Source of the DNA: a virus
Length of the DNA: 34,220 nt
Virus record (IMG/VR): IMGVR_UViG_3300023184_000331
Coordinates: 1-34,220 of that record
Direction: 5' to 3' (one strand)
A program made the position numbers and the translations under genes. Under the pieces are notes generated by a model. It was given only the letters and a program-made list of their open reading frames with translations, was not told where the DNA came from and searched no databases. How positions within the stretch are numbered: position 1 is the stretch's first letter; each line of letters begins with the position of its first letter. Positions 9,240 through 32,088 of the stretch are shown here, piece after piece.

Positions 9240-10040
9240 ATGAAGTACACTGTAATTACCACGTTTAACGAGTCGGGCTATAAACAATATGGCCAACGCA
9301 TGATTCAAACTTTCTTGCAAACATGGCCTGCTGAAGTCACCCTTGTGGTGTATGCAGAAGACTGTGCCATTGAGGAAACTGCACCTAATCTTGTGGTGCA
9401 TGATATTGGCATAGCAGATGCACTAACCACATTTAAAACTGCCTGGGCAGGTGTACCACGTGCCAATGGAGATGTCAGTAGCGATCCTGTTCGTAGCAAA
9501 AGAAAAGATTCCGGTAAAGGATTCAAGTGGGACGCTGTGCGTTTTGCTCACAAAGTCTACTCAATATTCCACTGTGCCAGAAGTATCTCAACTGATTGGT
9601 TAATATGGATGGATGCGGATACTGTGTGCCACAGCACTATTACTCTGGCAGACCTAGACCGCTTGTGTCCCCCAGATCGAGACCTGTGCTTTCTGGGACG
9701 GCAAGGCAAATACTCAGAATGTGGCTTGTATGCTATGAATCTCACAAGACCCAGTATAAAAACTTTCTTGCAAAAGTTTCAACGCATGTACGACGATGCT
9801 GAACAGGGAATATTTACACTCAAAGAGTGGCACGATAGTTATGTGTTTGATGATGTACGAAAACAATGTAATCTTGTTGAACTAGATTGGTCTGCACATT
9901 TGATCACAGGTGAAGGCCATCCGCTAATTAACTCGGAATGGGGTGCATACTTGGATCACCTTAAAGGTGCCAGAAAAGATCAGGGACGTAGCAAGCGAGA
10001 GGATCTAAAAGTTCCGCGTACAGAAGCGTATTGGCAATGA
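9240..10040 (+). CDS. GT-A type glycosyltransferase, first gene of plus-strand cassette
   Basis: A 266-residue protein. The DxD motif is D125-A-D127 in WLIWMDADTVC. The N-terminus (KYTVITTFNESGYKQYG) is the first strand and loop of a nucleotide-sugar-binding fold. A charged insert (SDPVRSKRKDSGKG, about 81-94) is unusual. It is the first gene of the seven-gene plus-strand block and ends in an ATGA overlap with the next gene. No ribosome site better than TAAG is seen before the ATG. The sugar transferred is unknown. Confidence 0.72.
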   Translation: MKYTVITTFNESGYKQYGQRMIQTFLQTWPAEVTLVVYAEDCAIEETAPNLVVHDIGIADALTTFKTAWAGVPRANGDVSSDPVRSKRKDSGKGFKWDAVRFAHKVYSIFHCARSISTDWLIWMDADTVCHSTITLADLDRLCPPDRDLCFLGRQGKYSECGLYAMNLTRPSIKTFLQKFQRMYDDAEQGIFTLKEWHDSYVFDDVRKQCNLVELDWSAHLITGEGHPLINSEWGAYLDHLKGARKDQGRSKREDLKVPRTEAYWQ

Positions 10041-10840
10041 CTTGGATATTCTTAAACAAAAACAATGCAGACGAGTACATTGAAATGTTTGCTGCCGGAT
10101 CACAAACAGTGCCCACTTGTTTAGAAACATGGTGTTACGAAGACAGTGATGCCCCACTTGTGTTGCGTGGCATCATGAAACACAAGATAATCAAGCGTTG
10201 TTGGGCGGATCAAAGACCGTTTTATTACATGGACTCAGGCTACTTGGGCAATAGACCCAGCATGGCCAATCCCAATGGTTGGAAGTTTTATCACAGGATC
10301 GTACCAAACAATCTACAACATGGTGCTGTGATTGATCGGCCTGCAGATAGACTACAACGATTAAACGTACGGATTAGACCCAGACAGAATCACTGCCGAG
10401 ACATACTCGTAGTCGCTCCTGACGAAAAGCCTTGTACGTTCTACGGTATCACACTAGACGAGTGGTTAAAGACCACAACGGATACTATCCGGCAATATAC
10501 TGATCGTCCCATACGCATGCGAGAACGTCCTGCGTCAAGATGGGATAGAAAAACACAACGACCCGAAGAGTGGTTGAACAATGTGCATGCTATAGTTACA
10601 TTCAATAGCACAGCCGCAACAGAAGCAGTACTAGCCGGCATTCCTACTTTTGTCACAGCACCTGCCAACGCCGCAACACCTGTGAGCAATACAGATTTAA
10701 GAACAATAGAAACACCTTGGTTCCCGGATAGTGACCAGGTATATAAGTGGGCTTGCCACTTGGCGTATGGACAGTTTCATACTACAGAACTGGCCAATGG
10801 TACCGCAGCCGCAATACTCAAGGAGACTCAACATGCGTGA
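10037..10840 (+). CDS. GT-B-like protein, family X member 2 (altered RPHP)
   Basis: A 267-residue protein; ATG at 10037 overlaps the preceding stop as ATGA. It shares with the 15013-16014 protein the block VLRGI, YYMDSGYLGN (63-72), YHRI..N..Q and RP.DRL..LNVR. The NS-motif region (FNSTAATEAVLAGIP, 189-203) is intact but the RPHP position reads RERP (162-165), so the usual histidine is lost. The C-terminal IETPWFPDSDQVYKWACHLAYGQF also matches the 15013-16014 protein. It may be a transferase with a changed active site, or a binding partner. Confidence 0.65.
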   Translation: MTWIFLNKNNADEYIEMFAAGSQTVPTCLETWCYEDSDAPLVLRGIMKHKIIKRCWADQRPFYYMDSGYLGNRPSMANPNGWKFYHRIVPNNLQHGAVIDRPADRLQRLNVRIRPRQNHCRDILVVAPDEKPCTFYGITLDEWLKTTTDTIRQYTDRPIRMRERPASRWDRKTQRPEEWLNNVHAIVTFNSTAATEAVLAGIPTFVTAPANAATPVSNTDLRTIETPWFPDSDQVYKWACHLAYGQFHTTELANGTAAAILKETQHA

Positions 10841-11483
10841 ACATTATGGATGGCAATTTCCTGACTTTGAAACACACTTGCCACGGATGATAAAGAAAAG
10901 TGTGGACAAAGGCTTGCCACCTGAATATCAAATTGCTGTACGACGTCGCAGTATTGAGTTATGTAAAAAACGAGATGTAGCATTGGACATTGGTGCCAAT
11001 GTAGGTTTATGGAGCCGTGATCTTGTGAAAAGTTTTGGCCGTGTGATAGCATTTGAACCTGTTGGTATATTTAGAGAATGTTTGGAACGTAATGTAACAG
11101 GAGATAACTTTGAAGTGCGCCCTATTGCACTAGGCGATCAGGATACCCAGGGCACCATGATCATTACCGAAGACAACTCTGGACACAGCCATCTTGATCC
11201 TGCCACTATGGGCACTGGTGATGTACAAGTTGTTCGTCTTGATAATCTAAACTTTCACGACATAAGTTATATCAAAATCGACTGCGAAGGCTATGAATAT
11301 CGCATACTGCAAGGTGCCGAACAAACAATTCGACGTTGTAGACCCGTTGTGGTAATAGAGCAAAAACCACATGATGCTTACAGCAAACAATACGGACAGT
11401 TTGCGGCTGTTGGATTACTGGAAGATTGGGGCATGATCCGACTGGATCAAGTGCGTGATGATTGGATCATGGGATGGCAATAG
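10833..11483 (+). CDS. FkbM-family methyltransferase
   Basis: A 216-residue protein. The ATG at 10833 has a strong AAGGAG and overlaps the preceding stop by eight bases. Motifs: LDIGANVG (51-58), the SAM-binding loop; AFEPV (73-77); and YIKIDCEGYEYRILQGAE (146-163), the FkbM signature. FkbM enzymes are O-methyltransferases acting on sugars or other small hydroxyl compounds. In this setting methylation of a glycan is the natural guess. It is the third gene of the plus-strand block. Confidence 0.85.
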   Translation: MREHYGWQFPDFETHLPRMIKKSVDKGLPPEYQIAVRRRSIELCKKRDVALDIGANVGLWSRDLVKSFGRVIAFEPVGIFRECLERNVTGDNFEVRPIALGDQDTQGTMIITEDNSGHSHLDPATMGTGDVQVVRLDNLNFHDISYIKIDCEGYEYRILQGAEQTIRRCRPVVVIEQKPHDAYSKQYGQFAAVGLLEDWGMIRLDQVRDDWIMGWQ

Positions 11484-12220
11484 GCGATTCTAAATTTATC
11501 AGTGTGTTACTACCCACAAGAAAAAGAACAAAATCTGTTGAAAAAAGTGTTCGAAGTTTGCTCGATCTTGCAACAGATCCCACAAGGATTCAAATTGCTA
11601 TTGCATATGATAATGATGATTTCGAAAGTCACAAATATTTCACTGGCAGTGAGTGGAAAGCATTTATAGAATCTTATGGTGCAGGACACGGTGTTTTTGA
11701 ATGTGAACCATGGGGTTACGAATACCTTGAGAAATATTATAATTTGATGGCTGTACATACATCTAGTGATTGGTTGTTAGTATGGAATGATGATGTTGTT
11801 ATGCTTTCCCAAGGATGGGACCAGGCGCTCTGGGAGATTAAAGATTTTATTGGAATGGTTCATATGGACTGTAATACAAAAATTAGATGGCCAGTCCCAG
11901 GATCAACATTATTCCCAATTGTTCCTCGTGCCTGGGTTGATTTTTTTGGTTGCATAACAGGAGGACCTTGTTTAGATTCTTGGATCGCTGAAATTTGTCA
12001 TAGTGCGGGTACTGCAAAAAGTATTAATGCTAACGTATTTCATGATCGTGCAGACGTTGCTGGAAACAACAATGACGAGACATATCAAGACACCAAAAGA
12101 CTCAGGGTAACAAATAAAAAAGTTTACAAAAGTGATGTAATGAAGCAACTGCGAGATGAATGGACCCAACGATGGATTAAATATTCAGATGAAAACAAAA
12201 ATAATCACACTAAAAAATAA
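11474..12220 (+). CDS. GT2-like glycosyltransferase, A+T-rich
   Basis: A 248-residue protein starting at the ATG at 11474, which overlaps the FkbM stop by ten bases. The GT-A features are VLLPTRKRTKSVEKS (11-25), IAIAYDNDDF (41-50) and WLLVWNDDVVML (100-111), where NDD replaces the usual DxD. GPCLDSWIAEICHSAG and the HDRADVAGNNNDETYQ tail resemble phage-encoded glycosyltransferases. The gene is clearly richer in A+T than its flanking cassette genes (11581-11640 has 17 G/C in 60 bases by hand count), with AAA and ATT codons common, which suggests separate acquisition. It overlaps the next gene by 32 bases. Confidence 0.7.
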   Translation: MAIGDSKFISVLLPTRKRTKSVEKSVRSLLDLATDPTRIQIAIAYDNDDFESHKYFTGSEWKAFIESYGAGHGVFECEPWGYEYLEKYYNLMAVHTSSDWLLVWNDDVVMLSQGWDQALWEIKDFIGMVHMDCNTKIRWPVPGSTLFPIVPRAWVDFFGCITGGPCLDSWIAEICHSAGTAKSINANVFHDRADVAGNNNDETYQDTKRLRVTNKKVYKSDVMKQLRDEWTQRWIKYSDENKNNHTKK

Positions 12221-12881
12221 TGCGCTGTCTGAGAGAGTATCTAAAGATTGCATCGAGCAGGCTACAAAGTTTGGGATGTCTGTTGAGGTATTTGACGCTG
12301 TAAACGGGTTTGATGCAGCCGGGCATCTAGAATTATTAGATATAAAACCGTTGGGAAAATTTAAAAAAGGTAGAGTTGGAGTAGTTGGGTGTTTGCTAAG
12401 TCATTACTATTTGTGGCTGGATTGTATCAAAGACAATGTTCCGTATGTTATCCTGGAGCATGATGGTTATTTCGTTAGGCCATTACCAGAAAATATTTTA
12501 GATTTGTTTGATGATATTATCAAATTGGATGCTGGTAATCCTTACAAAGATTCTTACGAGCAGTGGTTAGTTGAACACGAAAATGACAGTCCATCAACTT
12601 GGACTATCAACGACTATGAAGGCGGTGGAGGGAATCACGAAACTGGTGCTGGATGGAATACTATAGGAGCTTATGCTTACATTATTAAACCACATGCGGC
12701 AGAAAAAATAGTAGCATGGGTTAAACAGAATGGTTTTCTCCCAACTGATCATTTGTTAGGCACAAAAATTATAAACATAACTCACTACAAACCCACCATT
12801 GCAAGATTACATCCATATTATGCAATAGATGGCAACATCAAAAAGATGTCGACCACAATGAATTTGGAAAAAATGTTATGA
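12189..12881 (+). CDS. Glycosyltransferase family 25-like protein, A+T-rich
   Basis: A 230-residue protein. The start at 12189 (MKTKIITLKN) begins at the family's first strand; an earlier frame start at 12156 would add residues with no family look. GT25 (LPS/procollagen galactosyltransferase-like) features are FDAVNGFDA (35-43), GVVGCLLSHYYLW (64-76), where the S-H pair is typical, and VILEHDGYF (87-95) in place of the usual ILEDD. NTIGAYAYIIKPHAAEKI also fits the family. Codon use is A+T-rich like the preceding gene (12481-12540 has 16 G/C in 60 bases). It likely adds a hexose to a lipopolysaccharide-like acceptor. Confidence 0.75.
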   Translation: MKTKIITLKNNALSERVSKDCIEQATKFGMSVEVFDAVNGFDAAGHLELLDIKPLGKFKKGRVGVVGCLLSHYYLWLDCIKDNVPYVILEHDGYFVRPLPENILDLFDDIIKLDAGNPYKDSYEQWLVEHENDSPSTWTINDYEGGGGNHETGAGWNTIGAYAYIIKPHAAEKIVAWVKQNGFLPTDHLLGTKIINITHYKPTIARLHPYYAIDGNIKKMSTTMNLEKML

Positions 12882-13549
12882 GTCCGTACTATTTAGAATC
12901 AGTTAGGTTAGGCCGTGAGTTCCAAGAAAGCAACAAAGCCTGGGCAGGATACGATGTTGTAAAATATCAAAAAAAGATCAAAGAATTGGTAGATCACTAC
13001 AGTGCCCGGACCATACTAGACTACGGTTGCGGCAAGGGACTGCAATACCAAGAACGACTACCGTATGGCGGCAGCATCGGGCATGAATTGCCAGAATCTG
13101 AGTGGAAAACATTTGACGAGTATCTGGGTGTGACTGTGTACAAGTATGATCCTTGTGTGGCAGGCTTTGAGCAACTGCCTCCTGAGGGTACTAAGTTTGA
13201 TGGTGTTATTTGTACACAGGTGTTGAACAGTATACCCGATGATGACATGGTCTGGGTGCGTGAAACATTAGAAAAATATGCCATAAAGTTTTGCTTCATT
13301 GGTCTAAATTTCCAACGAGAAGCCAAAGAGAAAAAGACCATGTATGATTCCAAGTTTTTTCGAGAGCCTCGCACTAGAGAGTTCTTTCGCAGTTATTATC
13401 AAGATTGGTCAGGCAGTGATCTATTCTGGTGGTGGAAAGATCGTGGACACTATCCCGAATGGATAAACGATCAACTTAACGGAACTTGGACAGATGTTCC
13501 TAGCGTATGGACTGGCAAGTACAAATATGTAGAGGTAAACCACAGATGA
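12878..13549 (+). CDS. SAM-dependent methyltransferase
   Basis: A 223-residue protein starting in an ATGA overlap with the GT25-like gene. The SAM loop ILDYGCGKG lies at residues 46-54. FDGVICTQVLNSIPDDD is the motif that follows the adenine-binding strand. The C-terminal part is unusually rich in Trp and Phe (SGSDLFWWWKDRGHYPEW). Base composition returns to that of the rest of the cassette. A second, smaller methyltransferase follows directly, overlapping by four bases. Confidence 0.72.
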   Translation: MSPYYLESVRLGREFQESNKAWAGYDVVKYQKKIKELVDHYSARTILDYGCGKGLQYQERLPYGGSIGHELPESEWKTFDEYLGVTVYKYDPCVAGFEQLPPEGTKFDGVICTQVLNSIPDDDMVWVRETLEKYAIKFCFIGLNFQREAKEKKTMYDSKFFREPRTREFFRSYYQDWSGSDLFWWWKDRGHYPEWINDQLNGTWTDVPSVWTGKYKYVEVNHR

Positions 13550-14103
13550 TTATAGATCCCAAATATCAAGAGCAGTTGGCTACCATGCACAAACAAGGGA
13601 AATTTACCCACGGTAGTAAAGTTATTAAAAAAGTAAGGCCTTTTTTAAATCAATATAATCCCACCAGCGTATTAGATTTTGGCTGTGGACACGGTGCGTT
13701 GATGGCTAGTATACAACAGGCCTATCCTGACATGCGAGTAGAAGGCTACGATCCCGGTAATCCTGCACACCATCGTATGCCCAAACGTTCATTTGATGTT
13801 GTGGTCAGTGCTGATGTGCTTGAACATATTGAACCCAATCACTTGGCAGAAACATTACGTATGATCAGTGACAAAATAATTGTTGCAGGTTGGTTTAGAA
13901 TTGCTTGTTATCCTGCAAAAAAACATTTACCAGATGGTCGCAACGCTCATTTAATTGTGGAGTCACCAGACTGGTGGCGAGAACAACTGCTGGACAACAT
14001 GGATATTACCATTGCGTCAGAAGTGATCTCTGTGTTTGACAAAAGCCACACGTGGCCCGACGTTGTGGGCCACAACTATGATGTTGTGGTAGAAGCCAAG
14101 TAA
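13546..14103 (+). CDS. SAM-dependent methyltransferase, class I
   Basis: A 185-residue protein. The ATG at 13546 overlaps the previous stop as ATGA and follows AGAGGT; an earlier in-frame start at 13507 would lie deep inside the upstream gene. The SAM loop VLDFGCGHG is at 42-50, with EGYDPG as the acidic strand end and FDVVVSADVLEHIE the following motif. It is the last gene of the plus-strand block. Its final 28 bases overlap, tail to tail, the end of the minus-strand gene at 14076-15020, with no terminator between. Confidence 0.76.
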   Translation: MIIDPKYQEQLATMHKQGKFTHGSKVIKKVRPFLNQYNPTSVLDFGCGHGALMASIQQAYPDMRVEGYDPGNPAHHRMPKRSFDVVVSADVLEHIEPNHLAETLRMISDKIIVAGWFRIACYPAKKHLPDGRNAHLIVESPDWWREQLLDNMDITIASEVISVFDKSHTWPDVVGHNYDVVVEAK

Positions 14104-22302: not shown

Positions 22303-22309
22303 TATTTAG
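22303..22309 (-). promoter_or_regulatory. T4-late-like -10 element (CTAAATA) before the 740-aa gene
   Basis: The minus-strand heptamer includes the TAA stop codon of gp17 and ends seven bases before the ATG at 22295. It fits the late-element series seen across this region. Confidence 0.5.
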
Positions 22310-23895
22310 CGCATCATTGCAATGAACGGGAATGGTTCAATTATGTTGTCTGTGTGGTCTTTTAGGTAGGAATTTAAATCTGCGTGGTATGATTGTAGCA
22401 ACATCAGCATTCTAGTGGCCAGCAACCCGGCCATCACAAGATCGTCTGTTTCCCCAATTTTGGCCGCGTAACTAGAGCCAGCAGCCACAAAAGTTTTTAG
22501 TTCTGATATCAAGGGCTTTGAGTACAATTTCATACGTCCAGATTCAACTAGCACTTTGAACTTGTTGCAGGCCACAATCTTGCTCTTGTTGGTTGTGGTA
22601 AATCCCTTGCGGATTCTACGTCCGTTTGAACTTTGTACTGAGTTGTCGCTGAGGAAATAACCTGGAATATTTTCTTCGCCATATTCTGCAATAGAGATGA
22701 GTGCGGCTTCGCCTAGGGTATTATTTTCCACTGAGTAATAGATCTTCTTCTCGTCCCGGACCACCGAGTGTATTTCTTTAATTACATCTGCTAAGATTTT
22801 AATCTGTGTGGGCACATCAGTTTTGTTATGACGCCACTCGGCCACTTGCTCTGTAGTTTCTGCTTCAAATACTTGTATGGCTGAAGGATCACCACCCGTG
22901 CCTAGGCTTGGGTCAAGGGCCACAATATACATTTTGTCTCGATCAACAGGCTTGTACCAACGCACCTGTCCCGTTTTGTGGGTGGGTTCTTGGCCTTCTA
23001 GTTCCAGCAGTTTAATAGGCGAGATCAATGTTTCGTCATTGATAACAAAGTCACAGTCCATCTCTCGACGGAAACGTTCGTCTCCTAATTGGCTGCGCTG
23101 TTCTGCGGCCCATGCATCATCACGGTCTGGATGTTCGCGCCAGAATGCTCTAAATGCTTTGAAGCCGTTGATGCCCAAGCCATCTGGACGTGGATTACCA
23201 AACTCATCTTCAATCTTGTTAGCACCCTTCCAGATATAGGCAAACTGATCTTCGTCTGAGTTTGGTGTGCTTGTGATAATTGCTTTACCACCAGTTGATA
23301 GTGTAGGTGTAATACTAGTCCAAAACTCTTTGGCAATTGTGGGTCTCACAAAGGCAAACTCGTCTAGATACAGCAAGGTAATACTCATACCACGACCGGT
23401 ATTTTCAGTTGTGGTTTGACTTACAATACGCGAACCGTTGTCAAATTCTAAACTACCTTTGTTGTAACTTGTGGCGCCTGCACGTATGTGATTGGGACAT
23501 AGTTCATAAGCATAGCGAATACGTTGCATGATCTCTTGTGCGCCCAGATATTTGTGTGCCGCAATAAGAATAGTTGCGTCAGGCACAAACATAGCATACC
23601 ACAACAGGTATCCTGCGGCCGAAGTTGACTTGCCGGTTTGTCGAGGCATCAATGAGATTGAGAAACGATTGGTGTGATAATTTGCAATCAGTCGCTTTTG
23701 ATATTCAAAAGCATGGTACAACATCTTGCCCCTGACTGGATGTTGAATATGAAAAAAGTTGTCCATGAAGTACATGGGTCCGGTCACAGGATCTGCGCAC
23801 CTAGCAAAGTCTTCAAGTTCTTGTTCAGAGAATGTTTCTTTGCGGTGTGGTGCTTTGACCAACACTGTGTCTAAGGTATTTTTTGCGCCAATCAT
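22306..23895 (-). CDS. 17: Terminase large subunit gp17
   Basis: A 529-residue protein (T4 gp17 is 610 aa). The ATG at 23895 follows GGAG by eight bases and overlaps the upstream stop as ATGA; a GTG six codons earlier lacks this. ATPase motifs: Walker A RQTGKST (85-91), Walker B LLYLDEF (174-180) with catalytic Glu, and the coupling motif TSTPNS (208-213). Nuclease motifs: Asp328 in VALDPS, Glu390 in SVENN, and the ETDDLVMA pair (483-490). The enzyme drives DNA packaging and cuts the concatemer. In T4 gene 17 follows gene 16; here gp16 lies about 7 kb upstream. Confidence 0.95.
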   Translation of the reverse strand: MIGAKNTLDTVLVKAPHRKETFSEQELEDFARCADPVTGPMYFMDNFFHIQHPVRGKMLYHAFEYQKRLIANYHTNRFSISLMPRQTGKSTSAAGYLLWYAMFVPDATILIAAHKYLGAQEIMQRIRYAYELCPNHIRAGATSYNKGSLEFDNGSRIVSQTTTENTGRGMSITLLYLDEFAFVRPTIAKEFWTSITPTLSTGGKAIITSTPNSDEDQFAYIWKGANKIEDEFGNPRPDGLGINGFKAFRAFWREHPDRDDAWAAEQRSQLGDERFRREMDCDFVINDETLISPIKLLELEGQEPTHKTGQVRWYKPVDRDKMYIVALDPSLGTGGDPSAIQVFEAETTEQVAEWRHNKTDVPTQIKILADVIKEIHSVVRDEKKIYYSVENNTLGEAALISIAEYGEENIPGYFLSDNSVQSSNGRRIRKGFTTTNKSKIVACNKFKVLVESGRMKLYSKPLISELKTFVAAGSSYAAKIGETDDLVMAGLLATRMLMLLQSYHADLNSYLKDHTDNIIEPFPFIAMMR

Positions 23896-25022
23896 ATGAT
23901 CAACTCCGGCCACAGTCGTGCAAACTCACCTGCCTTATCTGGGTGAAACACAGTTTCATTGTCTTGAATGTGTTTATGAAACTTTTGTTGTATCACAGGA
24001 TTATCTTTTGTTTGTTTATATTTTTCCAATGCTTGGTCAAAGAACTGACGTTCAGCATCAGTAGCGATACCCATAGCATAAAAACGAAGAATTTCTTCAC
24101 TAGCCAATCCGGCCACTTTGGGACCATGCAAAAATGGATCAAGATAGTCAGGCTGAAACAAGTTTTGCCACAGTACTGTGGTACCAGTATCTTGAGCAAA
24201 CTGCCTAAATTCACAAAGATGTGTAGCACTATAAATGTTATACACTGCGTGTATGCCTCCCCAATGTCCGTTGTCGCGCATGAGATATTTAACTGTTTGT
24301 AGATTGTGTTGTAACAACTGCCAACTGGCACCATGGCGCACATATTCTAATCTATCACCAGTATTATCAAAACTCATACTCCAGCCCACGTTACGACGTT
24401 GCGTAAGTTTTTGAAATATTCGGTTCTTTTCTAAATCTACATTCATGTTTGTGATCAAGGTCACAATAGCAGACTCAGGGATAACTTCTAACAAACGTTC
24501 ATTCTCGGGCAATAACAAAGGTTCACCGCCTACCATGGCCACTTCGTGTATGTGTTCACGATGCTGGTCCAGGAAGTCACACACCTGTTGATAGTAGGGT
24601 CTTGTACCAGATCGAAATGGCACGCTTTTGATGCTGGCCCACTTGCTGGAACACTCAGGTCCACAATAATTACAACTCAAATTACAAGTTGTGTTCCAAC
24701 GTACATCAAAAATCACAGGATAGTGATAGCGATCACCGGCTGTGGCATAATCAAAATCGGGGTTCACGTTGTTGTGCCAAGTACGTTCTGAATCTGCACC
24801 AAAACGTTCGGACTTGACACAGTTGCTACAATATTCATGTGGCTTTCCTTGTGCCAGACTAGCACGTATCTCAGTCATGAGATCTGTGTTAAGTATTTCT
24901 TCTATTGTGTTGTTATTGAGGTTGCCCAGCATGTTGGGGTTGCCAGCACAACATGTTTTGACATTGCCTTGGGGATTGATATGCAGGCCACGCCAGGGTG
25001 CCGCACAGTAAAAATTGCTCAT
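23892..25022 (-). CDS. Radical SAM protein with twitch/SPASM-like cysteines
   Basis: A 376-residue protein. The CxxxCxxC cluster that binds the SAM-cleaving [4Fe-4S] centre is C113, C117, C120 in CNLSCNYC. MVGGEPLL (163-170) is the SAM-binding GGE motif. Upstream cysteines C6, C24, C25 and the pair C65/C68 suggest a second cluster in an N-terminal twitch/SPASM-like domain, whose opening CAAPWRGLHINPQG is typical. Such proteins are found in phages of marine and freshwater bacteria; substrates are unknown, and peptide or sugar modification are the usual roles. It overlaps gp17 by four bases and so is made with the packaging motor. Confidence 0.88.
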   Translation of the reverse strand: MSNFYCAAPWRGLHINPQGNVKTCCAGNPNMLGNLNNNTIEEILNTDLMTEIRASLAQGKPHEYCSNCVKSERFGADSERTWHNNVNPDFDYATAGDRYHYPVIFDVRWNTTCNLSCNYCGPECSSKWASIKSVPFRSGTRPYYQQVCDFLDQHREHIHEVAMVGGEPLLLPENERLLEVIPESAIVTLITNMNVDLEKNRIFQKLTQRRNVGWSMSFDNTGDRLEYVRHGASWQLLQHNLQTVKYLMRDNGHWGGIHAVYNIYSATHLCEFRQFAQDTGTTVLWQNLFQPDYLDPFLHGPKVAGLASEEILRFYAMGIATDAERQFFDQALEKYKQTKDNPVIQQKFHKHIQDNETVFHPDKAGEFARLWPELII

Positions 25023-25058: not shown

Positions 25059-25142
25059 TCACACAGGACTGTAAGGGTTACGAAAACGATCGTAACCATC
25101 ATCTTCTGGATACACTGGATAGTTGTTGGGGTTATTCTGCAT
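25059..25142 (-). CDS. Possible 27-aa Pro/Tyr/Asn-rich small protein
   Basis: A short frame that starts within the last codons of the nuclease gene (11-base overlap) and ends 36 bases before the radical SAM gene. It is rich in Asn, Pro, Tyr and Asp (MQNNPNNYPVYPEDDGY...). Its composition recalls short proline-rich virion proteins such as the 56-aa protein at 27057-27227. An 8-bp inverted repeat in the middle may account for part of the pattern instead. Coding status is uncertain. Confidence 0.35.
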   Translation of the reverse strand: MQNNPNNYPVYPEDDGYDRFRNPYSPV

Positions 25143-25947
25143 TTCGACCACACCGGGCACGTTTGGCATTTGTGAGTGCACCAAAATCCACTGGCCACTC
25201 TTGACCTGGTTGTAGTTCTCGAGCGCCTGCTGGGTAAGCAAATTTAACACCGGCTGTGATTTCAATTTGGCTAACCGGCAGCCGGAACTTGGTCAAGTCA
25301 TTGCCTAAATTAACATAGGGTTTGGTATGTGGGAATGCCCAACCAGCAATCTGTTTGGTTTGATTGTTGATTACAATTTTGTAAAAGCCGTGTGGTACAA
25401 CAACGCCGTTGCCGATTGATTCATCACCAGGTCCGTAGAACGCACCCACATAGATTGTGTAGGGTTGATTGAGTTGTACTGCCCAACCACGCACACTTGT
25501 TTCCAACAGTTTCCAGATACCGCGGTTTAAACTTCCGTGTTGCGGATACATATTGGTCATTAGGAATGATTCATACTCTACTTGTGCTGACCAACTCAAG
25601 TCACCGTCAGGAGCGGCATGTCCTTTATCGTAGCCTGTGCCAGCGTAGTCATCTGGTCGGGCACCACCCTGGACGCTTTGATCAGCAACAAAAGCATTGG
25701 TACGTGGGAAGCAACCTAGTGCGTTTTGTGGTAGTAATGTATATGCCACATAGGCAGGAATCTTTACAGGAGCATCATATGCCACAAGATAGGCTTCGCG
25801 GCAGATGGGTTGCACAGCACGTTTGACTGTGGCAAATCCATAAGGTGAGTGTACTGCACAGGCCTGTGGGGGATTAGGGGCTCGTTGGTCCCAGGCATGT
25901 ACCAGTCCTGCTGTGACCAGCAAGACCACGGTTAATATTTTTTTCAT
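25132..25947 (-). CDS. Exported DNA/RNA non-specific endonuclease (NUC1 family)
   Basis: A 271-residue protein. Residues 1-18 form a signal peptide (KKILTVVLLVTAGLVHA, cleaved before W19). The catalytic motif YDKGHAAPDGD (106-116) matches the DRGH motif of Serratia-type nucleases with D-K in place of D-R; His110 is the general base. Asn141 in LNRGIW is the magnesium ligand and TNMYPQ (131-136) precedes it. Four cysteines (30, 49, 79, 266) could form disulfides after export. It lies among virion genes behind a TAAATA element, so it is likely made late and placed in the periplasm or particle. It could degrade competing or host-released DNA. Confidence 0.9.
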   Translation of the reverse strand: MKKILTVVLLVTAGLVHAWDQRAPNPPQACAVHSPYGFATVKRAVQPICREAYLVAYDAPVKIPAYVAYTLLPQNALGCFPRTNAFVADQSVQGGARPDDYAGTGYDKGHAAPDGDLSWSAQVEYESFLMTNMYPQHGSLNRGIWKLLETSVRGWAVQLNQPYTIYVGAFYGPGDESIGNGVVVPHGFYKIVINNQTKQIAGWAFPHTKPYVNLGNDLTKFRLPVSQIEITAGVKFAYPAGARELQPGQEWPVDFGALTNAKRARCGRNAE

Positions 25948-25979: not shown

Positions 25980-26360
25980 TTAGTAACCCTTGAACGGCTT
26001 GACTGTGCTTTGTGTGTTTACCAAGGCCGGTTCTAAACTATTTGGGGTACTGATTTGTATTTTTTCAGCAGATAACCCAGACATTTTCAATGCTTGGTCA
26101 ATAATTGGTTCAACGCTGGCATTGAATCCACCAATCACAGCATCTTCGCCAAATGCCGCTTGTGCTGACCACTCAGGCATGTTGGGTATTGGATCTTGTG
26201 TGCCGGCATCGCTACGGGCTCGGGCCATGGCCACACCCAAGCGATATATTTTGTACGGATCACTAGATGGTACACCGGGCAACACAAACACATGGTTCAT
26301 GGGATCTGCTTGCTCTGGCGGCAAAGTTGCTTGTTCAGTGATAAATTCTCGGGCTCTCAT
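25980..26360 (-). CDS. Putative internal head protein with capsid-targeting-like N-terminus (copy 2)
   Basis: A 126-residue protein. The first nine residues MRAREFITE end in I-T-E, the (I/L)xE type of site cut by T4 gp21 protease, and resemble the T4 internal-protein targeting peptide MKTYQEFIAE. The rest includes YKIYRLGVAMARARSD and a C-terminal FKGY. The gene upstream has the same plan (MRAQEFVVE ... VGFKGYR), so the two look like diverged duplicates. The start overlaps the upstream stop as ATGA. Packaging into the head and cleavage on maturation are inferred. Confidence 0.7.
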   Translation of the reverse strand: MRAREFITEQATLPPEQADPMNHVFVLPGVPSSDPYKIYRLGVAMARARSDAGTQDPIPNMPEWSAQAAFGEDAVIGGFNASVEPIIDQALKMSGLSAEKIQISTPNSLEPALVNTQSTVKPFKGY

Positions 26361-26728
26361 CGGTACCCCTTGAATCCCACCAAAGGGCTTGTCTTGTGTA
26401 CTGTTGGATGTTCTTGACTTCTTGTATCACCATTATTCAAGTCACGATGTGTTGATCCCACGGCCTTGAAGGCCTGGTGCATCATTTTTTCTTCAACATC
26501 TGTATACGGTGCCGCAAGGTTGTTTCTACCTACCCACGATTCACTGTCAACTGTGACTGGTGCATCTGTGCCGTCAGCCATGGCCACTGCCATCATGATA
26601 CGATTGAGTTCATATGTGCGATCAGCACGTTCGTTGTCCACAAAGGTATGCAAGCCCACTGTTGCATTTTGCAAACGTTTGCTTATGTGACCTTTTTTGT
26701 GTTCAACCACAAACTCTTGTGCTCGCAC
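26357..26728 (-). CDS. Putative internal head protein with capsid-targeting-like N-terminus (copy 1)
   Basis: A 123-residue protein that starts with GTG at 26728, two bases after the upstream stop; the match of MRAQEFVVE to the following paralog supports this start. VVE is close to the (I/L)xE cleavage type. The middle, YELNRIMMAVAMADGTDAPV, parallels YKIYRLGVAMARARSDAG in the paralog, followed by WVGRN and AAPYTDVEEKMM. It is rich in His, Arg and Asn with no membrane segment. A packaged internal protein is inferred from the N-terminus and location. Confidence 0.68.
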   Translation of the reverse strand: MRAQEFVVEHKKGHISKRLQNATVGLHTFVDNERADRTYELNRIMMAVAMADGTDAPVTVDSESWVGRNNLAAPYTDVEEKMMHQAFKAVGSTHRDLNNGDTRSQEHPTVHKTSPLVGFKGYR

Positions 26729-26730
26729 AA

Positions 26731-27057
26731 TTAACTCGATGTTGAACCGTACACGCCAGACTGTGCTGATGTGGCAGTACCTATTGCTGTGGCACTAAAC
26801 ACAGTACCAGTAATGCTCAGATAATTACCTGCGCCAACATAGTATTGTTGTACAGTATTTCCCGGAACCACAACAGAATTTGCGTACAGGTTGCCAGTTG
26901 GCATACTAGTGTTTACAGGAACACCATTGGCCTGTATGTATTGTGTCTGTGTTTGGATAACTTGAAAATTCACTGTGGCAAGAGTTGTGGCAATTTCCAC
27001 CTTGTCAGTGGTCCAGAGAACGTTTGATCCAGTATTAACAACTTGAACGGCAGCCAT
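26731..27057 (-). CDS. Small beta-rich structural protein, 108 aa
   Basis: Low in charge, rich in Thr, Val, Gln, Ala and Gly, and lacking Cys, which suits a surface or decoration protein. The segment VVVPGNTVQQYYVGAGNYLS followed by SITGTVFSATAIGTA has the alternating pattern of a beta sandwich. The start overlaps the 56-aa gene's stop as TAATG. I do not know a T4 counterpart; a virion role is inferred from composition and neighbours. Confidence 0.65.
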   Translation of the reverse strand: MAAVQVVNTGSNVLWTTDKVEIATTLATVNFQVIQTQTQYIQANGVPVNTSMPTGNLYANSVVVPGNTVQQYYVGAGNYLSITGTVFSATAIGTATSAQSGVYGSTSS

Positions 27058-27227
27058 TATTTCGAGTCCTTGGGTGGTTCACTCACAACTGGTTGAAACA
27101 AGTTGCGTGATTGATCCAACACACCCGGAATGTATACCGGTTGTTGTTTGTAACCGCCAGTGGCTGGACTGTGTGGATTGATAACAGGAGGTGTTGTCAA
27201 TGCTGTGGTAAAAGGTTGTGTGCTCAT
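27057..27227 (-). CDS. 56-aa Pro/Thr/Gln-rich small protein
   Basis: An intact frame between the 841-aa and 108-aa genes, with one base between the upstream stop and its ATG and a TAATG overlap downstream. The sequence is disordered-looking and proline-rich (TALTTPPVINPHSPATG, then YKQQPVYIPGVL), and ends PPKDSK. No motif is recognised. Tight packing supports that it is coding. A virion or scaffold accessory role is only a guess from its place. Confidence 0.65.
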   Translation of the reverse strand: MSTQPFTTALTTPPVINPHSPATGGYKQQPVYIPGVLDQSRNLFQPVVSEPPKDSK

Positions 27228-27228
27228 A

Positions 27229-29754
27229 TTATGCTTTCATAAAACGTTGTAGTTCGGCCATCAAACTTTCAGCAACTTTTTTGTCGCCGGCTGCTTTTTT
27301 GTCATCAACTGCTTTTTCGATAGTTTCTTTTTTGTTGCCGTCGTTGTCAACGTCAGGGAAGTCTGGCTTTTTGGCTTCTCGAATACCGGCCATCTCACGC
27401 AAGCGATGCAAATCATCTGCACCCATGCGTTCTTCTTGGCCTGCAATTACAGGAATAGTTGTTTGACCAGTTGATTTAGGACCATTTAATCCACCTGAAT
27501 ATTCAAAACTATCTTGTGCTGTTTCGGTGTTGGTAGGATAGTCTGGACTGTTTTGACTCACAACATCATCTCCGTATGCTTCGTCAACTGTTTCGCAACC
27601 GCAGTCTTCTTGACCACATGCATCGCACACTTCGCTGTCATCGTGTTCGTGACCATGATCTCCCATGGCTTGACGAATTTGATCAGCAAGTGCCTCTGCA
27701 CCTTCAGCATCCATTGTGCCATTTACTTCAATTGCACCAGGATGATCTAGATCGGCACCACCTTCGATATGTGGGTAATCGTGTCCGCCTAGACCGGCGT
27801 TTTTCAACAATTCGCCCAGTTTGAGTGCATCATCATCTGTGGCAGTAACAGTCACGCTCTTGCTTGGTCCGCCTGTGGCGTCGGTGTTCATGTTCATGCT
27901 GATGTTCATGCTTTCACGAATCATGGTTTCAAGTTCATGATTCATAGAGTCATAAATGCCTTGTCCAAAACCAAAGCCACTTGATGCTGTGGGGGTGTCA
28001 GTTCCGCCTGCTTCTTTGACTTTCTTTTTCTTTTCATCGTACTCAATGTCTTTGGCTACCTTCTTGCCGGCTTTTTCTGCCTTGTCATCTTCTGCGCCAC
28101 GCTTTGCACCATGAATGCCATCTTTCTTTTTCTCATCATACTCGATGTCTTTGGTCACTTTTTTACCTGCACGTTCAGCGCGGTTGTCACGCTTGGTAGT
28201 TTTTTCTTCGCCCATGGCCATTTCTTCATCGTCCTCTTGATTCTGCATGTAGTCATCCACAGCAGTCATCATGCCTTCAATCTTGGCCAACTTGGCTTGT
28301 ACCCATTCTGGCAAGTTGTCGTTGTCGCCCAGCACTTTCTGCAAGGCCTGTGCATGACGCACAATAGTCTTGATGTCGTCTTTGGCCATTTCGCCTTCTT
28401 GGTCGTACTCGCCACGATCAGTGATGTCAAGATCGTCCTCATTGGTTTTCTTTTTGCTGTATGCAGTACGATCGGTCTTGCGTGATTTTGCTGTGACACG
28501 TTCTTGACGTGGACCACTTGCACTCTTGGGGCGACCACGTCCGCGCTTTTCACCTGCGGCTGGCTCATCACTATCAGCACCTACTGAGTAACCTGTGTTG
28601 GGATCAACTCTGCGTGTTACTCTACGACCACCTGGAATTTCTTGTGTGTCATGTTTGTCGCCGTGTGTGACATCACCAACTCGGCGAGCACCCATGCGGC
28701 TCTTGACGTCTTTTTCCATTTCGTCCCAGCCTTCGTCCATGTCTTTTTTCACAGATTTGGTTCTAACCACAGCCGAGTGAAAGTTTTTCTTGTCAGCAGA
28801 TATCTTGTTGTTGTATTTTTGAGCAAAAGACGTGGCACTGTCTTTGTCAGGGAATGTTTTCAGCAAATCATAATCAGCACCACCTGCTCTATCACCTTTT
28901 GTCTTGTGATATACATAGAACTGACCAGCACCTTCATCGGCCACTTGCTTGTTGCCGCCTTTGCGCAACATAGCAAAGTCGTTGGCATCTAGTCGGCCAT
29001 TCTTGTTCATGTCAATTTTCTTTTGCTTGGGACTGAGTGCGCTCTTAATTGCTTCTGCGGCCACATCACCCAACATTTCGTCAACTTCTTTTTTGGCGCC
29101 GGCAATTCTATCTGCAAAGTTTGGCTTCTTGCCTGTTTGTGGCACGCCCATTTTCTTTTGTAGGTCTCGGCGCATGTCTTCGTCTGAGCCATGACCTAAT
29201 TTATTCAAAACTTTATTACCCACTTTCTTCACAGTGTCCATGACACCTGCTTCTTTTACAGGATATGTTCGGCCATCCACTTTAAAAGAGTCTTGATGAT
29301 TTGCCTTGGCCTTGACCAATTCACCTGAGAATTCATTGCCTTCGTCTGTCATGCCCTGACTTTCTTTGGGATGACGCAGTTTGTTTAGTACGGCACCTGC
29401 CACACGCTCACCGGCTGCTTTGGAGCCATAACGCTGGCCAGCATCCTTGGCAATCTTCTCAAAATTCTTGCCTGGCTTGCCAATGTCTTGGCCGGCACGT
29501 GCCTTCTTGGCCGAATAATCACCCGAGGCTTCTTCTACAGAATCCTTGTACTTGTTGTACTTGTCACGAATTGGATCCAGACTCTTGCCTTCACGGCCTG
29601 CTTTGGCCAGGGCTTGCATGCCCGCTTTGCCATACTTCTCATAGCCCTTGGCTGCACGACTCATGTCACGCTCGTTCAATTGCTTGTGAGTGGTTTCTGG
29701 CTTCTCGCGAATGCTATTCAACTTGTCGTTAAGATTGTAGAAAAAATTGTCCAT
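27229..29754 (-). CDS. Large charged virion-associated protein with AT-hook and EF-hand-like loop
   Basis: An 841-residue, highly charged protein, mostly Lys, Asp, Glu and Gly. In order: SIRE (14-17), a possible (I/L)xE cleavage site; repeated basic helices to about 230; DMNKNGRLDAND (248-259), a good EF-hand-type calcium loop; KRGRGRPK (403-410), an AT-hook core that binds the minor groove; two copies of AGKKVxKDIEYDEKKK (529-544 and 562-577); CDACGQEDCGC (710-720), a possible metal site; and DVDNDGN (801-807), a second Asp-rich loop. An internal DNA-associated head protein or prohead core component is the best guess. It has an exact TATAAATA late element. Confidence 0.75.
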   Translation of the reverse strand: MDNFFYNLNDKLNSIREKPETTHKQLNERDMSRAAKGYEKYGKAGMQALAKAGREGKSLDPIRDKYNKYKDSVEEASGDYSAKKARAGQDIGKPGKNFEKIAKDAGQRYGSKAAGERVAGAVLNKLRHPKESQGMTDEGNEFSGELVKAKANHQDSFKVDGRTYPVKEAGVMDTVKKVGNKVLNKLGHGSDEDMRRDLQKKMGVPQTGKKPNFADRIAGAKKEVDEMLGDVAAEAIKSALSPKQKKIDMNKNGRLDANDFAMLRKGGNKQVADEGAGQFYVYHKTKGDRAGGADYDLLKTFPDKDSATSFAQKYNNKISADKKNFHSAVVRTKSVKKDMDEGWDEMEKDVKSRMGARRVGDVTHGDKHDTQEIPGGRRVTRRVDPNTGYSVGADSDEPAAGEKRGRGRPKSASGPRQERVTAKSRKTDRTAYSKKKTNEDDLDITDRGEYDQEGEMAKDDIKTIVRHAQALQKVLGDNDNLPEWVQAKLAKIEGMMTAVDDYMQNQEDDEEMAMGEEKTTKRDNRAERAGKKVTKDIEYDEKKKDGIHGAKRGAEDDKAEKAGKKVAKDIEYDEKKKKVKEAGGTDTPTASSGFGFGQGIYDSMNHELETMIRESMNISMNMNTDATGGPSKSVTVTATDDDALKLGELLKNAGLGGHDYPHIEGGADLDHPGAIEVNGTMDAEGAEALADQIRQAMGDHGHEHDDSEVCDACGQEDCGCETVDEAYGDDVVSQNSPDYPTNTETAQDSFEYSGGLNGPKSTGQTTIPVIAGQEERMGADDLHRLREMAGIREAKKPDFPDVDNDGNKKETIEKAVDDKKAAGDKKVAESLMAELQRFMKA
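28022..28172 (-). repeat. Diverged tandem repeat in the 841-aa gene
   Basis: Two 16-residue units AGKKV[TA]KDIEYDEKKK are 33 residues apart in the protein (529-544 and 562-577). The coding DNA has diverged at many third positions, so the duplication is old and kept by selection on the protein. Confidence 0.7.
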
Positions 29755-29778
29755 GTTGGGTTCCTAAGTAATATGACT

Positions 29779-29786
29779 TATTTATA
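29779..29786 (-). promoter_or_regulatory. T4-late-like promoter element TATAAATA before the 841-aa gene
   Basis: An exact minus-strand match to the T4 late consensus, ending 24 bases before the ATG at 29754. The TAA at its centre is the stop codon of the HNH gene, so the element would have existed before, or been rebuilt at, the insertion site. Confidence 0.7.
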
Positions 29787-30438
29787 CGCCTTTCGATACT
29801 TTGCAGTTATCACCGTGCCACTTGGAGTAGTTTGCAGTATCACAAATTTTATTACAATGCGGACAAGTTTTTTTAATTTGAGAAGGGTGGTTTCCGTTTG
29901 CTACTCTTTTTAAATTGTTAGCAGGCCCAACAAATACGCATTTACCAGCGGCTAACTGACGCAAAGATGCTTGTTTGATTTTTTCTTGTACTTTGGGGTC
30001 CGAGGAGCCCTTGCCTGCGGCGTGTAAATCTGATGCCAGGCTTGTTCCATCAGACCGTTTCTGCAAGTTATGTGTGCCATTGGCAACTCGTTTAGTATTA
30101 GTTGGCCTAACATAGTTCTCTACAAATTCTTTACTTTGAAATTGGTGCTTACCTTGCTCAACTAATAACTTTTGTAATCTACTTGCTTCTTTTGATATTT
30201 CTTGTGGGGTTTTATTCATTCTTGAAAATATCCGAGCACACGCTTCATAATCACCCTGTGCATAATGTATATCATAATGCTCTTGTATAGTGAGCGCCAC
30301 TAGATTCAGCGGATCATTATTGGTATGATCTCCATCTTTGTGATGTATTTCGTAAGTTCTACCACTCGAGTCTTTTGGGATTGGGCCATTGTGGATTATG
30401 TAAGATCGTCTATGATCTTTAAGATGATAAGTAGGCAT
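29782..30438 (-). CDS. HNH homing endonuclease with NUMOD3-like repeats and C-terminal zinc finger
   Basis: A 218-residue free-standing endonuclease. The HNH motif is YEIHHKDGDHTNN (29-41) with PLNL and HYDIHY (54-59). Two KRVANGxH segments (116-123 and 177-184) are NUMOD3-like DNA-binding repeats. The C-terminal finger uses C192, C195, H208 and C212. Such genes cut related phage genomes lacking the insert and spread by repair. It stands between two virion genes and is preceded by a structured leader. AAGGAG lies eight bases before the ATG at 30438. Confidence 0.92.
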   Translation of the reverse strand: MPTYHLKDHRRSYIIHNGPIPKDSSGRTYEIHHKDGDHTNNDPLNLVALTIQEHYDIHYAQGDYEACARIFSRMNKTPQEISKEASRLQKLLVEQGKHQFQSKEFVENYVRPTNTKRVANGTHNLQKRSDGTSLASDLHAAGKGSSDPKVQEKIKQASLRQLAAGKCVFVGPANNLKRVANGNHPSQIKKTCPHCNKICDTANYSKWHGDNCKVSKGV

Positions 30439-30444
30439 GCTGAT

Positions 30445-30493
30445 TGCTCCTTCAAGCGTTAGAGCAGTTGGGGATTACCGTCCCGCGAACTGC
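30445..30493 (-). promoter_or_regulatory. Alternative RNA hairpins in the HNH leader
   Basis: On the minus strand, GCAGTT (30493-30488) pairs with AACTGC (30469-30464) around an inner GGGA/TCCC stem. TGCTC (30466-30462) can instead pair with GAGCA (30449-30445), covering the last three bases of the ribosome site AAGGAG (30452-30447). The two stems share 30464-30466 and cannot both form, so the leader could switch translation on and off. Confidence 0.5.
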
Positions 30494-30498
30494 ACCTA

Positions 30499-30505
30499 TA
30501 TTTAC
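30499..30505 (-). promoter_or_regulatory. T4-late-like -10 element (GTAAATA) before the HNH leader
   Basis: The minus-strand heptamer lies two bases after the stop of the 201-aa gene and about 60 bases before the HNH ATG. A message from here would begin just at the first hairpin of the leader. Confidence 0.5.
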
Positions 30506-30506
30506 C

Positions 30507-31112
30507 TCAGCCCTTTGGGTGTGCGCCAGTGGCTGGCTTGGGTTGACGCTTGATCGTGGTCATGGGGCTCTTGTTACCCATTGGCAAATCATTTGTGGTT
30601 TTAGCAGGAGGTGTCTTGCCCCCGGCCACGGTAAAGTTACTACGGTATGCATTCTTTAACACTTCGTGATCATAAGGACCAGTTGCATAGTCTTTCTTGA
30701 GTGCTCGTTGTTCTGCATCAGGGGCAGGATAAGGTGAGTCCAACAAGTCTTTATTTTCGTCTTCAATCTTGTTGTTTTCAATATTGAGACTGTCTTCATA
30801 GCCGTCTGTGTTCATCACAATGCGATTGGGATCCAGGCCCAACAACTGTGCCAGTTGTTTGATCTGTGGTTCAATGGCTGGATACTTGAATTCCACATCC
30901 ACAATCTTCATGGGCTGATTGGGAAACGCTGGAAAATCAGGGATCACTCGACGAACTGGTGTGCTCTTGGCATCTGACATTTTGACAACGTCAAATTGAG
31001 CGCACTTGTCTCGAAGTTCTTTAAAAAAGCCATCAGGTACATCACCAACTACTTTGATACGGTAGTTGTATGTACGTTCGCTTTCGGCTAGGTATTTTGC
31101 AAATGGTTTCAT
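30507..31112 (-). CDS. Putative internal virion protein with capsid-targeting-like N-terminus
   Basis: A 201-residue protein. The start MKPFAKYLAESERTYNYR carries L-A-E at residues 8-10, a good gp21-type cleavage site, and resembles internal-protein targeting peptides. After the site, ERTYNYRIKVVGD begins a folded domain up to about residue 105 (VEFKYPAIEPQIKQLAQLLG). The C-terminal third is disordered and basic with many Pro and Lys. ERTYNYRIK proteins occur in other T4-like phages of this type as unknowns. It is located between gp16 and the HNH insert, and has its own late-type element. Confidence 0.68.
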   Translation of the reverse strand: MKPFAKYLAESERTYNYRIKVVGDVPDGFFKELRDKCAQFDVVKMSDAKSTPVRRVIPDFPAFPNQPMKIVDVEFKYPAIEPQIKQLAQLLGLDPNRIVMNTDGYEDSLNIENNKIEDENKDLLDSPYPAPDAEQRALKKDYATGPYDHEVLKNAYRSNFTVAGGKTPPAKTTNDLPMGNKSPMTTIKRQPKPATGAHPKG

Positions 31113-31656: not shown

Positions 31657-32088
31657 TCACGCTCGACCGTTGTGAAACATGTCCTGTTCAGTAATAACTC
31701 TAAATGTGAGTCCGTTGCGTCGAGCCCATTTGGTCGCCGCGTCCCACTTACAGTAGTTGATGGCTACTATAGTGCGGTCTCGGCTGTTCATTTTTGACTC
31801 AATCACGCTTTGCTTTTTGGGTTTGATTTCAATCAGTTCGGCCCGCATTTGATTGTTTTTGGTACGGTATGTGATCAAAAAATCTGGGATATACTGTGTC
31901 ATCTTGCCTGTGAGTGGATGACGATAAGGAATGGCAATGCTTTCGCTAGCCCATTGTAAAATATGATCGTTTGAGTCTAGGAATCGCATAAATGACAATT
32001 CCCAACCCGATCTGTAGCGGGGCTCACCGTTGCCCACATACTTGGCACGGTTGACCACAGTGTATGTGCCTTGTGCCCAGTGTGCCAT
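31657..32088 (-). CDS. 4: Head completion protein gp4, TnsA-like nuclease fold
   Basis: A 143-residue protein (T4 gp4 is 150 aa). RYRSGWELSFMRFLD (25-39) carries Glu30; YIPDFLI has Asp69; and AELIEIKPKK gives Glu87-x-Lys89. Together these make a restriction-endonuclease-type E...D...ExK site, as in the TnsA N-domain and gp4 family. In T4 gp4 acts with gp50/gp65 products to finish the DNA-filled head before tail joining. It starts in a TAATG overlap with the 120-aa gene. Its nuclease activity may trim DNA ends at the portal. Confidence 0.88.
   Translation of the reverse strand: MAHWAQGTYTVVNRAKYVGNGEPRYRSGWELSFMRFLDSNDHILQWASESIAIPYRHPLTGKMTQYIPDFLITYRTKNNQMRAELIEIKPKKQSVIESKMNSRDRTIVAINYCKWDAATKWARRNGLTFRVITEQDMFHNGRA

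Follow-up and report, generated by a model that had tools for sequence, protein, structure and literature searches.

Do the short N-terminal peptides of three small proteins mark them as internal head proteins of an uncultured T4-like freshwater phage? The DNA analysed here (the window) comprises the 34,220 bases of one virus record. It encodes two tail-tube proteins, a T4 gp4-like head-closure protein, a terminase large subunit, and gp32-like, UvsX-like and UvsY-like proteins, which identify it as a fragment of a T4-like phage. An earlier note on this DNA had singled out three minus-strand ORFs, here A, B and C, whose N-termini recall the capsid-targeting peptides (CTS) of the T4 internal proteins (IPs). 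All three ORFs are present with the claimed N-termini (Table 1), and A's ATG overlaps B's stop codon, the two genes sharing 4 bases. The T4 peptide quoted for comparison, MKTYQEFIAE, is correct for ipII and ipIII. The T4 ipI N-terminus is MKTFKEFTSTTTPVSTITE↓A, and its removal yields a 76-residue mature form (95 minus 19).

Table 1. Features of the window (window positions; ↓, predicted cut).
Feature	Position	Strand	Description
A	25980..26360	-	126 aa, tagged, MRAREFITE↓QAT...; predicted mature form 117 aa; C-terminus ...STVKPFKGY
A tag, residues 1-9 (MRAREFITE)	26334..26360	-	predicted capsid-targeting peptide, predicted cut after E9
B	26357..26728	-	123 aa, GTG start, paralog of A, MRAQEFVVE↓HKK...
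B tag, residues 1-9 (MRAQEFVVE)	26702..26728	-	predicted tag
C	30507..31112	-	201 aa, tagged, MKPFAKYLAE↓SER...; ortholog of PA5oct gp282
C tag, residues 1-10 (MKPFAKYLAE)	31083..31112	-	F4, Y7, L8 and E10 in the T4 IPIII CTS register
D	27229..29754	-	841 aa; follows C and precedes the small genes; corresponds in position to PA5oct gp281
E	26731..27057	-	108 aa, untagged, between D and B
F	27057..27227	-	56 aa, untagged, between D and B
Head-closure protein (T4 gp4-like)	31657..32088	-	phrog_218, 1.3e-38; virion-module landmark syntenic with PA5oct
Terminase large subunit	22306..23913	-	phrog_36964, 1.2e-116; downstream landmark

Several other genes of the window were recorded. An HNH/intron-like homing endonuclease gene (29782-30438; phrog_12324, 2.2e-33) lies between C and D and is absent from this place in phage PA5oct. 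Directly downstream of A is a nuclease gene (25132-25947; phrog_14168, 1e-34) with a signal-peptide-like N-terminus; copies about 80% identical occur in the related records G001 and G002, and none was found in G003. The radical-SAM gene between terminase and nuclease (23892-25022) has copies 69-74% identical in G001-G003. Positions 9240-14103 form a block of plus-strand ORFs that run against the direction of the virion genes, and the adjoining minus-strand ORF 7016-7741 matches a glycosyltransferase (phrog_1962). The exact T4 late-promoter word TATAAATA occurs only twice in the window, at 29786 and 20072 (both minus strand), one copy preceding D's start by 32 bases. In the window, G001 and G003, C is preceded at a distance of 25-26 bases by a form with one mismatch. 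A, B and most tagged genes have no such word upstream, so we make no argument from these words.

Relatives of A and C were confirmed in 165 and 207 IMG/VR stretches, respectively, and A was compared at 116 loci. The longest relatives measure 300-347 kb. The gp23 of one of them, G003, shows 65.6% identity to the gp23 of Pseudomonas phage PA5oct and its relatives, and 61-66% to the gp23 of other cultured jumbo phages. A megablast search of phages with 10 kb of the window gave no match. Pfam and PHROG searches returned no family for A, B or C, and no relative of A or B was found in cultured phages. Membership of A in a known family was rejected on these grounds.

The tags proved to be conserved. 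Among 122 distinct N-termini of relatives, all but one variant ended in (I/L/V)xE, the ending that the earlier note had pointed out in the window. The strict motif [FY][ILV]xE was found in 43/43 non-redundant relatives of A, 47/49 of B and 34/34 of C. The two exceptions of B read EFMAE and EFVIQE; in the second, one residue has been inserted and IxE is retained. A relaxed motif covered 49/49. The peptide ends in a gp21-type motif in all three families of this clade, with V, and once M, used besides L and I. Residue x of (I/L/V)xE is free in A and B (entropy 2.1-2.5 bits, eight or more residues); the Glu is invariant.

A and B are related over their whole length. Their profile-profile alignment (hhalign, 99.9%, E 2e-33) included the tag and the SPVxxFKGY C-terminus, which bears out the proposal that these neighbours are diverged paralogs with a common FKGY end. 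The central R..MA.A motif ascribed to them held in part: a shared central block exists (Y.L...M..A..DGT), but its arginine does not align between A and B. Their tag, MRAxEF(I/L/V)xE, has a constant R-A-x-E-F core. Set against the T4 CTS, it is one residue shorter; EF(I/L/V)xE matches, F6 corresponds to F7, and there is no aromatic counterpart at position 4. Identity to relatives was 56-84% for A and 44-64% for B, compared with 61-74% for the tail tube. A and B thus diverge like, and no more than, the tail and other virion-module genes. The AlphaFold model of A (pLDDT 55) was too poor to interpret. Two more A/B paralog types with the same tag (about 126-132 aa) were observed at L266, L267, L268 and L269, which brings the family to three copies per record. 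They end in SPVxxFxG(Y/F) and had no PHROG match, and the one type searched against the phage collection had no match there.

C carries the closest likeness to T4. For T4 IPIII to be packaged, its first ten residues are enough; mutagenesis showed that positions 4 and 7 mainly set targeting and positions 8 and 10 set processing, and gp21 cuts after (L/I)xE (PMC9026906). In the C family, F4 is constant in 33/34 members (Leu in one), and Y7, L/I8 and E10 in 34/34; positions 3, 5, 6 and 9 vary. The constant positions are exactly those of IPIII targeting and processing. C is unrelated to A (hhalign 2%) and shares only the tag with A and B. Orthologs of C were found in PA5oct (E 2.8e-12), Phosso and Vibrio phage 2.275.O. 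The PA5oct ortholog, gp282, is syntenic with C and annotated as virion-detected by ESI-MS/MS, which supports the view of C as a virion protein; gp281 bears the same annotation. The order common to PA5oct and the window is two tail-tube genes, a small structural gene, head closure, the next gene, gp282/C, gp281/D and terminase. Only the window has the HNH gene, F, E, B, A, the nuclease and the radical-SAM gene. D contains 7 [ILV]xE[AGSN] sites versus 2.4 expected, a modest excess (shuffle fraction 0.0095).

PA5oct gp282 starts MKSFRDYYDAS. It retains both targeting positions (F4, Y7) and has lost positions 8 and 10, and by the T4 rules it is predicted to be packaged yet unclipped. This pattern fits the finding in T4 that targeting can be retained when processing is lost. 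The Phosso ortholog likewise keeps MKxFxxY without (I/L)xE, so cleavage would not be universal in this family. The model of C (pLDDT 63 overall, about 80 in residues 11-100) suggests that residues ~14-107 form a probable ferredoxin-like (S6/ACT-like) domain, followed by a low-confidence tail from ~126. The fold matched ribosomal S6 and ACT domains with Z scores of 7-8; it is a common one and therefore gives no function. The best viral structure matches were uncharacterised phage proteins, one from Agrobacterium phage Atu_ph07.

The A/B-type tag is not confined to A and B. A DNA pattern for MR[AS]xEF(hydrophobic)xE matched 47/50 related records, in almost all cases at the neighbouring B-A pair, and additional sites matched as well. 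The reversed control pattern gave 0 matches in the 50 records and 0 in a later set of 19 records. When N-terminal residues were shuffled, motif N-termini averaged 0.14 or fewer per genome, compared with 6 observed in G001 and 8 in G003. The DNA under the tag varies synonymously, which argues that the peptide is under selection. The distinct tagged proteins that match neither A nor B number at least 13 (66-335 aa), counted from 14 "other" matches, one of which was not distinct. Among them are several with weak-to-moderate matches to GNAT and one with a weak ParB-like match; the majority have no assignment. Several tagged accessory proteins of G001 and G003 are encoded in islands beside large multi-module proteins.

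Two of these large proteins adjoin tagged cargo genes: one of 1243 aa (G001 55341-59072, L188) and one of 1396 aa (G003 231624-235814, L215). By eye, they show signatures of a nucleotidyltransferase (SGSNAG...HSDIDLH), a zinc metallopeptidase (HELTH) and possibly an amidoligase, and they resemble polyvalent proteins. As a separate observation, unrelated proteins continue alike past the Glu of the predicted cut (ENASVGATSSGSVATV, ETASAGASSAGGIASV and, in gp23, ENASAGSTAAGNIATL), as if sharing a mature N-terminus. Similar post-cut peptides are located at G001 62030-62230, in PA5oct gp281 and at gp23 N-termini. A generic (hydrophobic)xE N-terminus was not enriched among the virion-detected proteins of PA5oct (3/90 vs 12/295, P = 1). 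Predictions should therefore be made with specific tags, and not with any (hydrophobic)xE start. A literature search for the tag or the seam peptide described below returned nothing relevant.

A protease of the required type is encoded by relatives. We found gp21 (PF03420) in 11/21 and gp23 (PF07068) in 14/21 of them. Among them is G009, in which A shows 84% and C 86% identity to the window's proteins. The window itself holds neither gene, and we infer both from relatives such as G009. The comparison with gp23 cut sites advised in the earlier note gave a matching predicted site in the relatives' gp23, TRKYLKE↓NAS, at the place of FLTE↓AEI in T4.

Taken together, A, B and C are probably internal head proteins: their N-terminal peptides would direct loading, gp21 would remove these peptides, and the mature proteins would be ejected along with the DNA. 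Each would carry a capsid-targeting peptide of 9-10 residues, which would bind the prohead scaffolding core, so that the protein is enclosed at shell formation. A gp21-type protease would then cut after the Glu of (I/L/V)xE and free the mature protein among the packaged DNA. The mature proteins would leave the head with the DNA at infection. C would use the T4 IPIII register, and A and B the clade-specific variant MRAxEF(I/L/V)xE. In related phages, the A/B-type tag would also load a changing set of unrelated proteins.

The N-terminal helix may instead serve for docking or as a structural part of virion proteins that undergo no cleavage, with LxE conserved for binding. The PA5oct and Phosso orthologs of C, which lack the cut motif, are in keeping with this, and gp282 is still annotated as virion-detected. 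The free residue x, the invariant Glu and the IxE-restoring insertion variant in A and B, however, are what a protease motif would be expected to show, and relatives encode gp21. We consider an uncleaved element unlikely.

Loading of A, B and C would also be compatible with the role suggested in the earlier note, that of injected restriction or defence inhibitors. The model for this role is the CTS-loaded T4 IPI, which inhibits a type IV restriction enzyme (PMC3012670). The A/B tag is also found on unrelated proteins, some with weak GNAT- or ParB-like matches, domains of a kind proposed for injected effectors (PMC5512222). T4 internal proteins, however, are accessory, basic and poorly conserved (PMC9026906). 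A and B are core genes, occurring in nearly every relative (tag in 47/50 records) and diverging no more than virion-module genes. Mature A is acidic: the computed mature pI values are 4.75 for A, 8.27 for B and 7.71 for C, versus 9.0-9.7 for the T4 IPs, and none of the three has a family match. An IPI-like defence role for A, B and C was thus unsupported, and we judge it improbable. Constancy, virion-gene-like divergence and the acidity of mature A fit a core role better than strain-specific inhibition. A and B are probably constant head contents that act in the head or in early infection independently of the host strain, and not dedicated restriction inhibitors. The variable tagged accessory proteins outside the window are better candidates for counter-defence or effector functions than A, B and C. 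Resemblance by chance or by common descent, without any targeting function, could account for the tag shared by the paralogs A and B alone, but it is very improbable given that C and at least 13 further tagged proteins are unrelated to them and that the shuffled and reversed controls gave next to no matches.

A second recurrent sequence was found in the relatives. The 21-mer GAGCAAGGTGTGGCGGAAGGC, which encodes EQGVAEG in large proteins, occurs in at least 120 viral stretches. In 80 loci examined (L371-L450), 90/90 copies were in the same frame and inside long ORFs. These loci contain 161 other GVAE junctions, 113 of which use GGTGTGGCGGAA, against ~1% expected from codon use. Among the junction pairs, 35 had the same left flank with different right flanks, and 30 showed the reverse. 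In many freshwater phages, the word is found repeatedly, and in frame, where modules of large proteins meet; its flanks are unrelated and its codons identical. The 21-mer or its 16-bp core is located at 59581 and 60366 in G001 and at 213194, 213509, 245787 and 245967 in G003; the window has no copy of the 21-mer. gp21 was encoded by 10/19 of the records tested. VAE↓G within EQGVAEG is a gp21-like site, and the word looks like a recombination seam that carries a protease site. Cargo loading may be modular in these phages: MRAxEFhxE would load unrelated proteins, and seam-recombined multi-module proteins would be cut by gp21 at VAE↓G into injected modules. We put this forward as a tentative possibility.

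For most of the genes in uncultured jumbo phages, no function is known. The tag is common to many unrelated proteins of the giant relatives and can therefore be used to predict head contents, so that raw sequence yields a testable list of the proteins that these phages bring into the host. C agrees with T4 mutagenesis position by position, and one of its orthologs is predicted to be targeted without being processed; this provides clean experimental predictions.

The tags of A, B and C are best compared with T4, as a variant of its known type of head targeting. Like the CTS of IPI, IPII, IPIII and Alt, they are short, follow M-K/R-...-F/Y-(I/L/V)-x-E and end in a gp21-type (L/I)xE site. C shares the exact IPIII register (4, 7, 8, 10), and the T4 trait of one peptide on unrelated mature proteins recurs here in the tagged proteins described above. 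The A/B tag differs in its length, in lacking the aromatic residue at position 4 and in its constant core. Beyond the tag, no sequence similarity of A, B and C to the T4 IPs was found. A and B differ from these as core genes, A as an acidic protein, and all three are not strongly basic. PA5oct (Wroclawvirus, Arenbergviridae) has an ortholog of C with F4 and Y7 and has gp281 in the place of D, but gp282 lacks the (I/L)xE site, and terminase directly follows gp281, without F, E, B and A between. The tagged accessory proteins of the relatives, with weak GNAT- or ParB-like matches and a position beside multi-module proteins, recall the polyvalent proteins (Iyer et al. 2017, PMC5512222). The part of that article considered here describes no targeting tag for them, and A, B and C differ from the proteins described there as single small proteins without such domains. 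The inner-body and ejection proteins of phiKZ and SPN3US are also head contents with propeptides that a gp21 relative cuts after Glu (PMC9026906). phiKZ, however, uses an (S/A)xE motif with several sites per propeptide, whereas the phages described here encode gp21 and gp23 of the T4 type.
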